Assembly: GCA_022563535.1 (NCBI GenBank)
Contig: JADFNE010000043.1
Location: 1 to 36,803, forward strand
DNA from: Myxococcales bacterium
Lineage (GTDB): Bacteria > Myxococcota_A > UBA9160 > UBA4427
DNA length: 36,803 bases
Direction of reading: 5' to 3'
Both the position numbers and the translations under genes were made by a program. Positions 24,176-36,385 of this stretch are shown piece after piece. Under the pieces are notes generated by a model that saw nothing but the letters and a program-made list of their open reading frames with translations, did no database searches and had not been told where the DNA came from. Numbering within the stretch: the stretch's first letter is position 1; each line of letters starts with the position of its first letter.

Positions 24176-24200
24176 CGACCGCGCGACTTTGGGAGATCTC

Positions 24201-24566
24201 GTGAAGCGAGCCATCCTGTTGGTAGACCACGGCAGTCGACGTGCCGAAGCCAACGCTCAACTGAGCGCCGTGGCCGAGGCGCTGCGCGCGCGAATTCCGG
24301 GCGAAATTGTCGAAATCGCCCACATGGAACTCGCCGAGCCCAACGTGGCCTCGGGAATTTCGCGCTGTGTCGATGCCGGCGCCCAGACGATCGTCGTGCA
24401 CCCCTACTTCCTGGGTCCCGGCCGTCACACCCGAGAGAGCATTCCCGAGTTGGTCGATGCCGCTGCACAGCAGCATCCCGGCATCGAGATCCGCATTAGT
24501 GAGCCTCTCGGGCTTCACAAGGGTTTGATCGACGCGGTACTCGATCGAGTTGCGAAGCTCGCATGA
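24201..24566 (+). CDS. cbiX: Small CbiX-type sirohydrochlorin chelatase
   Basis: Single-domain chelatase of 121 residues, matching the short CbiXS form. It inserts cobalt (cobalamin route) or iron (siroheme route) into sirohydrochlorin. The metal-binding histidines are H10 in L-V-D-H-G-S-R and H67 in V-V-H-P-Y-F-L-G-P-G-R-H. GTG 24201 is preceded by GGGAG at ideal distance; a TTG at 24189 overlaps that site. Metal choice is undecided. It follows the ferredoxin gene and is the only other gene in the window with a plausible link to cobalamin, besides the riboswitch at 35.0 kb. Confidence 0.88.
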   Translation: MKRAILLVDHGSRRAEANAQLSAVAEALRARIPGEIVEIAHMELAEPNVASGISRCVDAGAQTIVVHPYFLGPGRHTRESIPELVDAAAQQHPGIEIRISEPLGLHKGLIDAVLDRVAKLA

Positions 24567-34957: not shown

Positions 34958-35014
34958 CTGGAACGAGTCCCCAACCCAGGCTCCTGGTAATTGATTGACA
35001 GTGCAACGCTGCTT

Positions 35015-35155
35015 CCGTTAGGCTGGCACCACCTAAATGTGCTGGAAGGAGTGCTTCTCCGAGATCGCTTCGGGGAAGACTGGGAAGCCGGTGAGAGTCC
35101 GGCGCGAGCCCGTCGCTGTAACTGGGGACAGCCTCAACGAATTGCCACTGATCCA
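35015..35155 (+). promoter_or_regulatory. Cobalamin riboswitch
   Basis: The B12-box core is present: GGGAA (35082), GCCGGTGAGAGTCC (35087-35100), GGCGCGAGCCCGTCGCTGTAA (split at 35101-35121) and the closing GCCACTG (35144-35150), in the order and spacing of the AdoCbl class. A 5' CTGGCACC part lies at 35023. It is read left to right, and the next forward gene is the PEP-CTERM protein at 35570, 415 bases on. No clear terminator follows, so control may act on translation or on a structure further down. The exact 5' and 3' borders are approximate. Confidence 0.9.
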
Positions 35156-35161
35156 CAACCG

Positions 35162-35223
35162 CCCAACGGCGTCTACGCAAAGCCAAAGCAAAGCCAAAGC
35201 AAAGCCAAAGGCGCAAAGTTGGG
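35162..35223 (+). repeat. Three 11-bp repeats inside a long stem after the riboswitch
   Basis: GCAAAGCCAAA is repeated three times exactly (35177-35209). The array is flanked by CCCAAC (35162-35167) and GTTGGG (35218-35223), which can pair and loop the repeats out. It lies directly downstream of the riboswitch, where an expression platform would be expected. A second hairpin, CGAAGAG-AGATG-CTCTTCG, is at 35334-35352. Confidence 0.75.
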
Positions 35224-35569
35224 AACGAATGGGTTGGGAAGGCGTTTGAGGTTGGTAGATCCAGAAGCCAGAAGACCGACCTTCCATCGATATGCGGGCG
35301 TGTTGAGATTGTTTCGACTTCACTGACGATCTTCGAAGAGAGATGCTCTTCGTAGCCGGGTAGAGCTCGAAACAACTCGAGGCGTCATCGGATTGAAGAT
35401 TCTTCTCCGGGGGCCGGGAAGGAGTTTCGTGTCGCTCGCCATGTTTGCGGGTGATCCCAACTCCAGCTCAATTCTCCAAGAAGTTGTTCTCTGCACATTT
35501 GGCGCACACGACAGAAGCCGTGTGTGATTGAAATGGTTTGCCTTCGAGGACCCGAGGAGATCACCACTC

Positions 35570-36385
35570 ATGCGATCTGCAACATCTTTACCACGACCCA
35601 ATTTGCGTTCAATCTCAGTATTCGTCACCGCGCTGATCTTGAGCGCGCCGGCGATGGCGGGCGTCATCGACTTCGAGAGCTTTCCCCTCGATCCAAGCGG
35701 GTACTACAACGGCAGCGACCTCGCCGGTGGATTCACGATCGACGGGACGACCTTCGACAACACCTTCACCGACTTCGGCGGAGGCTGCTGCTGGGATGGC
35801 TGGGCCGTCTCGAATCACACCGACACCACCACTGAGGGTTTCGCAAACCAATACAGCTCTTACGCGGGCGGCGGGTTTGGCGCTGGAAGCCAGTACGGCG
35901 TGCTGTTCACAGACAGCGGAAACATCACCCTGGACAGCGCACAGCTGGCCACGGGCACGTACCTCAGCACCACGACCTACTCGGCGCTCTCGATGCTGAA
36001 TGGCGACGCATTCGCCAAGAAGTTTGGCGGCGCGAGCGGGCTCGACGCAGACTGGTTCAACGTCACCATCGAGGGTTCCCTCGGCGGCAATTCCACGGAC
36101 AGCGTGGTCTTCTATCTTGCGGACTATCGGTTTGCGAATTCGGCCGACGACTACATCATCGATTCATGGACCTATGTCGATCTCAGCTCGCTCGGGCTGG
36201 TGGACGAACTCCGCTTTAGCTTCGGCTCATCCGATATTGGCTCCTTCGGAATCAACACCCCAACCTATCTGGCGATGGACGACTTCGTCACCACAGTTCC
36301 CGAGCCGGGCACCGCGGTCCTGGTTTGCATGGGTGGAGTGATCCTGGGCCAGTTGGCCCGCCGCAAGCGAGCCAAGAACAGTTAG
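35570..36385 (+). CDS. DUF4465-like PEP-CTERM surface protein
   Basis: Exported protein of 271 residues. The signal peptide ends near A-M-A-29. The mature part shows the DUF4465-like pattern N-T-F-T-D-F-G-G-G-C-C-W-D-G-W-A, S-N-H-T-D-T-T-T, N-Q-Y-S-S, then D-A-F-A-K-K-F-G-G-A-S, V-V-F-Y-L-A-D-Y-R-F-A, W-T-Y-V-D-L-S-S-L-G and N-T-P-T-Y-L-A-M-D-D. The C-terminus is a PEP-CTERM tail: V-P-E-P (243-246), a hydrophobic stretch and R-R-K-R-A-K, the sorting signal handled by an exosortase (not in the window). GAGGAG precedes ATG 35570. The cobalamin riboswitch upstream makes B12 binding or acquisition the leading idea; this is inference. Confidence 0.88.
   Translation: MRSATSLPRPNLRSISVFVTALILSAPAMAGVIDFESFPLDPSGYYNGSDLAGGFTIDGTTFDNTFTDFGGGCCWDGWAVSNHTDTTTEGFANQYSSYAGGGFGAGSQYGVLFTDSGNITLDSAQLATGTYLSTTTYSALSMLNGDAFAKKFGGASGLDADWFNVTIEGSLGGNSTDSVVFYLADYRFANSADDYIIDSWTYVDLSSLGLVDELRFSFGSSDIGSFGINTPTYLAMDDFVTTVPEPGTAVLVCMGGVILGQLARRKRAKNS

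Follow-up and report, generated by a model that had tools for sequence, protein, structure and literature searches.

A cobalamin riboswitch and a DUF4465 PEP-CTERM protein in a Myxococcales bacterium: a probable exosortase-sorted counterpart of the Bacteroides surface cobamide capture proteins

Introduction

The closest described relatives of the system presented here are BtuJ1 and BtuJ2 of Bacteroides thetaiotaomicron, secreted proteins of the DUF4465 family (IPR027828) encoded in riboswitch-controlled loci and linked to BtuB/BtuG (PMC12751083). We analyzed a stretch of 36,803 nucleotides from a Myxococcales bacterium (contig JADFNE010000043.1 of assembly GCA_022563535.1), called the window below, in which a cobalamin riboswitch likewise precedes the gene of a secreted DUF4465 protein. 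Whereas BtuJ1 and BtuJ2 are lipoproteins located on outer-membrane vesicles, the window protein carries a PEP-CTERM signal, is encoded at a separate locus, and belongs to a Myxococcota host.

The ability of DUF4465 proteins to bind B12 has been established in members from eight distant sources, and a paper of March 2026 reported such binding for many phyla (PMC13398666). Three structures show a jelly-roll with loops placed around the corrin (PMC13398666; PMC12751083). The nearest solved relative of the window protein is D5EK51 of Coraliomargarita akajimensis, the structure of which contains bound B12 (PDB 9HMU). The sorting tail and the regulation of D5EK51 are not discussed in the paper describing it, where PEP-CTERM is not mentioned (PMC13398666); since the crystallised chain stops at ..VPE, this protein is likely to have a PEP-CTERM tail.

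Two other systems are comparable in part. BtuGH (BT_1490) of B. thetaiotaomicron, too, combines capture modules in one fused protein (PMC12751083) and may be compared with the fusions described below between DUF4465 and a second, partner domain, but this partner is fused to DUF4465 instead of BtuG, and carries PEP-CTERM. ZepA is a PEP-CTERM scavenger of a scarce nutrient, sometimes encoded near TonB receptor genes (PMC10957091), but it differs from the window protein in its domain, its ligand, and its regulator (Zur).

The riboswitch and the DUF4465 gene

The sole Rfam match obtained by scanning the whole window with Infernal (cmscan) is a cobalamin riboswitch aptamer (RF00174) located on the forward strand at positions 35030-35298, with a score of 80.5 bits (E 1.8e-18), the curated cut-off being 31.5 bits. 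The model is covered end to end (1-189), and the variable stem has an insert of 75 nucleotides. The first forward gene 3' of the riboswitch (35570-36385, ATG start at 35570) begins 271 nucleotides after the end of the aptamer and encodes a protein of 271 amino acids, residues 74-239 of which (35789-36286) match DUF4465 (PF14717) with 162.2 bits versus a cut-off of 25. A signal peptide was read by eye at residues 1-30 (35570-35659, ending in ..SAPAMA, before GV), and residues 242-267 (36293-36370) form a PEP-CTERM sorting signal composed of VPEP, a hydrophobic stretch, and RRKR, which exceeds the cut-offs of both PF07589 (24.4 versus 20.7 bits) and TIGR02595 (16.6 versus 16 bits).

The closest match of this protein in the PDB is the DUF4465-B12 complex 9HMU mentioned above (E 2.4e-25). 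The signature of the B12 pocket (NTPxY in the HI-loop and a tyrosine in the DE-loop) is present in the form of NTPTY, including Tyr233, plus Tyr137. In view of its membership of the DUF4465 family, the window protein is predicted to be a cobamide-binding protein of the BtuJ type. The window protein itself showed no homology to BtuH or BtuG in the searches.

Across its 147 contigs (4.63 Mb, 97.9% complete), the genome has a single DUF4465 gene and only two cobalamin riboswitches. Since there are only these two riboswitches, it is very unlikely that one of them would be placed less than 1 kb from the DUF4465 gene by chance (roughly 1 in 2,000). The original prediction, made from the sequence alone, had proposed a riboswitch followed by a secreted DUF4465-like PEP-CTERM protein as the first forward gene, and it was right about both; the aptamer begins 15 nucleotides after the predicted start at 35015. 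The proposed association with BtuG/BtuH has to be revised, DUF4465 being the BtuJ family, but a partner which is likely to be BtuH-like is encoded in the same genome.

Conservation of the riboswitch-DUF4465 pairing

The pairing was studied in 379 genomes drawn from the window's phylum and in 289 from the Verrucomicrobiota. DUF4465 is present in 31 of the 379 genomes. The riboswitch was found directly upstream, within the fetched flank, in 25 of the 30 Myxococcota DUF4465 loci examined (L001, L009-L037), and slightly further upstream, on longer flanks, in two short-flank fused genes (L051/L031 and L055/L033); the remaining three loci (L027, L036, and L037) end at contig boundaries. In the window's phylum, all the assessable DUF4465 genes but one are preceded by a riboswitch. 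Among the Verrucomicrobiota, DUF4465 occurs in 27 genomes, with a cobalamin-clan riboswitch upstream in 20 of these 27 cases and a PEP-CTERM tail in 19. The riboswitch thus recurs before DUF4465 genes in both draws, and this recurrence of the arrangement across several phyla makes B12 scavenging its most likely purpose. In Aquisphaera insulae (L113:6378-9105), two cobalamin riboswitches are located 2.5 kb apart, each of them being followed by a DUF4465 gene.

Forty-six loci were also picked, mostly for having DUF4465 neighbours. Based on coordinates and inspection, the riboswitch lies upstream in 43 of them, and no second one was detected in 37 of the 46 genomes. The phylum-wide draws provide the better statistic, because the choice of these loci was non-random and strictly filtered. 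Two of the 45 coordinate matches (L073 and L091) were dropped, as no riboswitch was found in those loci upon inspection.

The second riboswitch and the BtuB-like operon

The other cobalamin riboswitch of the genome is located on contig 10, 5' of a gene encoding a PEP-CTERM protein, the partner (L002:1975-2835, which is the same as L038:10413-11273), followed by the genes of a TonB receptor and a putative lipoprotein. The PEP-CTERM tail of the partner was read from the sequence, its Pfam score of 13 bits being below the cut-off. The receptor (L038:11281-13302) is composed of a plug (PF07715) and a barrel (PF00593), and its top PDB matches are BtuB entries, the best of which is Escherichia coli BtuB (E 6e-19). 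In the third protein (L038:13296-14930), a lipobox was recognized by eye and the predicted fold is a beta-propeller; this protein had no Pfam match and no meaningful sequence match in the PDB. Its identification as BtuG was considered and was not confirmed by sequence, and BtuG was outside the top 50 fold matches. Three more genomes of the genus show the same split layout, with one riboswitch for a lone DUF4465 gene and one for a BtuB-like operon; elsewhere in the family and the order, the DUF4465 protein sits inside the BtuB-like operon.

The partner domain is about 200 amino acids long and strongly conserved around a FAVFEN motif (L002:1975-2835 and alignment A3). Neither Pfam nor NCBIfam yielded a family above the cut-offs, and a PDB search with the single sequence gave nothing usable. 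Profiles based on 15 and 68 sequences matched a single PDB chain, 8blw_B, at residues 424-477 (E 0.026 and 0.019, respectively). This chain is the BtuG1 (BtuGH) of B. thetaiotaomicron in the BtuB1-BtuG1 structure, the C-terminal region of which (about 270 residues) is BtuH (PMC8941943), and residues 424-477 fall inside this region. When the AlphaFold2 model of the partner (mean predicted local distance difference test score 97) was submitted to Foldseek, 8blw_B was the sole match under E 0.001 (E 6.8e-4); the resemblance is remote (template modelling score 0.54, 14% identity), and discoidin/CBM32 folds rank next. No separate match with BtuH2 was obtained in the PDB searches. The fact that a weak profile match and a weak fold match agree suggests that the partner domain is likely to be BtuH-like. 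Relatives of this domain, including weak ones, were found in 223 of the 379 genomes drawn from the phylum, most of which lack DUF4465, and the domain is widespread in B12-riboswitch loci.

Fusions and sorting signals

The partner-domain scan of 84,980 species genomes yielded more than 547 relatives spread over many phyla; the 80 best loci were used here. DUF4465 is also present in 40 of these 80 loci, and the partner and DUF4465 proteins are adjacent or fused in the relatives, a single open reading frame being involved in 17 of the 40. In 14 of the 17 fusions, the two domains are separated by a PEP-CTERM-like segment and, after it, a signal-peptide-like segment. The single open reading frame in these cases (L054, L055, L056, L057, L059-L062, L067, L083, L087, L094, L111, and L113) amounts to two complete secreted PEP-CTERM proteins, the junction consisting of a PEP-like motif, a hydrophobic helix, basic residues, and the second signal-peptide-like segment. 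These 14 fusions belong to Myxococcota and related deltaproteobacterial metagenome-assembled genomes, Burkholderiales-type genomes, and one planctomycete; in L060 and L113, the order of the domains is inverted. The three Bacteroidota fusions have a short plain linker and type-IX-like tails at the end.

We tentatively suggest, with slightly less than even confidence, that these proteins constitute an exosortase-sorted, riboswitch-controlled two-protein cobamide capture system (a DUF4465/BtuJ-type protein plus a BtuH-like partner) which is widespread in Myxococcota, Verrucomicrobiota, Planctomycetota, and Burkholderiales, and which would often be synthesized as one polyprotein, cut by exosortase and signal peptidase at the internal PEP-CTERM/signal peptide into two separately sorted proteins. 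Several of the PEP-CTERM-linked fusions have an internal ATG, and since this could serve as a start, polyprotein cleavage and internal initiation both fit these fusions.

Other apparent sorting tails were observed in the same protein families, namely tails of the SGCFVGAA/GGCFIN type (L080 and L095) and VPxPAAxWLxGSG (L091 and L107), and the Bacteroidota members of these families end in type-IX-like tails.

Cobamide requirement and sorting machinery of the genome

Four matches with B12-binding domains and a set of BtuF, BtuC, and BtuD genes lacking a riboswitch were identified in the window's genome, where neither CbiC nor CobD/CbiB was found, the positive controls being detected in both searches. 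The presence of BtuFCD and B12 enzymes together with the failure to find CbiC and CobD suggests that this genome probably depends on imported cobamides. The genome also contains five matches with the exosortase family and 22 PEP-CTERM matches, and a sorting system therefore exists in it. The gene of a CbiX-type chelatase (24189-24566, forward strand; PF01903, 105 bits), to which the original prediction had drawn attention, lies 11 kb away and was set aside as part of the capture system; with CbiC and CobD not found, its membership of a cobamide pathway was rejected, and it most likely serves sirohaem.

Proposed mechanism and alternative explanations

Since the window protein belongs to DUF4465, the riboswitch is conserved, a BtuB-like operon is present, and the genome is apparently B12-dependent, we think it highly probable that this locus encodes a riboswitch-repressed, exosortase-sorted cobamide capture protein, the PEP-CTERM counterpart of the BtuJ/BtuH lipoproteins of Bacteroides. 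At low intracellular cobalamin levels, the riboswitch would keep the DUF4465 gene on; the protein would be exported via Sec, its PEP-CTERM tail would be recognized by one of the exosortases of the genome, and it would be placed at or outside the cell surface, where it would bind scarce cobamides tightly. The latter would then be passed, probably via the second exosortase-sorted, BtuH-like protein and the propeller lipoprotein, to the BtuB-like TonB receptor, from which BtuFCD would import them. With ample B12, the riboswitch would turn the DUF4465 gene off. Cobamide binding by this particular protein, the repression, the surface location, and the hand-off are the steps that we infer.

Several points weigh against this reading. 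The window protein has Thr134 at a position where 99% of 87 aligned DUF4465 domains have Asn, and a second DUF4465 copy in one member of the genus (L042:9363-10172) has no cobalamin riboswitch. In the window's genus, the DUF4465 gene is not adjacent to the importer. The co-occurrence of the partner and DUF4465 in 23 genomes (Fisher p 1.2e-19) speaks in favour of this reading, but the test takes no account of shared ancestry. Lastly, PEP-CTERM proteins in general may stay on the surface or may be released.

This last point bears on the best of the alternatives, to which we assign an appreciable but distinctly smaller likelihood: the cobamide-binding protein might leave the cell as a soluble exoprotein, comparable to a proteinaceous siderophore or to ZepA for zinc, instead of being kept at the surface. 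The PEP-CTERM zinc protein ZepA of Anabaena occurs in the exoproteome and favours the uptake of zinc (PMC10957091), and the BtuJ of B. thetaiotaomicron acts on shed vesicles (PMC12751083). A putative lipoprotein, which would be anchored, is encoded in the partner operon; the sequence evidence fits anchored and released forms alike.

As regards the regulation, a promoter-like element (TTGACA-N17-TTAGGC, 34995-35023, forward strand) was read directly 5' of the aptamer. The TTGACA is also present 5' of the aptamer in two of the three other genus members (L023 and L024) and is degenerate (TTGGCA) in L020; a generic promoter scan of the region did not call this element and found no other promoter. 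A GAGGAG ribosome-binding site (35554-35559, forward strand), 10 nucleotides ahead of the ATG, is kept in L020 and L024, the corresponding site in L023 being AAGGAG. In the interval between the aptamer and the gene, the scan detected one terminator-like hairpin (35400-35423), whereas chance alone would give 1.5 sites of this kind in the scanned region; the leader hairpin (TTCTTCTCC..GAAGGAG, 35400-35428, forward strand) is kept in four genus members. It is possibly part of the expression platform of the riboswitch, which could act either through termination or on the ribosome-binding site. A short tandem repeat (AAAGCCAAAGC) in the variable stem of the aptamer (35178-35215) was not seen in the aligned relatives of the genus.

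It is improbable that the riboswitch exerts no control, the transcript stopping at the hairpin (35400-35423) whatever the B12 level and the gene having a promoter of its own. Such an arrangement is suggested by the terminator-like hairpin and by the length of the leader, but an expression platform would look like such a hairpin, which is kept together with the aptamer in the genus, and the aptamer-gene pairing is kept across phyla; the negative promoter scan also argues against it. Even less credible is an ordinary PEP-CTERM matrix protein with a structural role and a B12 riboswitch upstream by happenstance, which would recall the classical link between PEP-CTERM proteins and exopolysaccharide (PMC1569441) and the cyclic di-GMP riboswitches located 5' of PEP-CTERM genes elsewhere (PMC12530212), but which accords poorly with the B12 binding of the eight distant DUF4465 members (PMC13398666) and with the riboswitch, the TonB receptor, and the BtuH-like partner being kept with DUF4465 across phyla.

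Novelty and significance

In the literature that was searched, no paper was found to connect cobalamin capture with PEP-CTERM or exosortase. What is new is the PEP-CTERM route and the gene arrangement, whereas the binding of B12 by DUF4465 proteins from outside Bacteroidota is already published (PMC13398666). The idea of an undescribed cobamide route outside this group is well supported as regards capture; capture with a TonB importer fits better than storage, for which no support was found.

The ligand and the purpose of PEP-CTERM proteins are mostly unknown. In the present case, the riboswitch and the domain together predict the ligand (cobamides), the signal (B12 scarcity), and the partner (a BtuB-type receptor), in a testable system which includes cultured hosts such as Aquabacterium parvum (L111). 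If this reading is true, B12 scavenging at the surface in the Bacteroides style would extend to the bacteria that use exosortase sorting.
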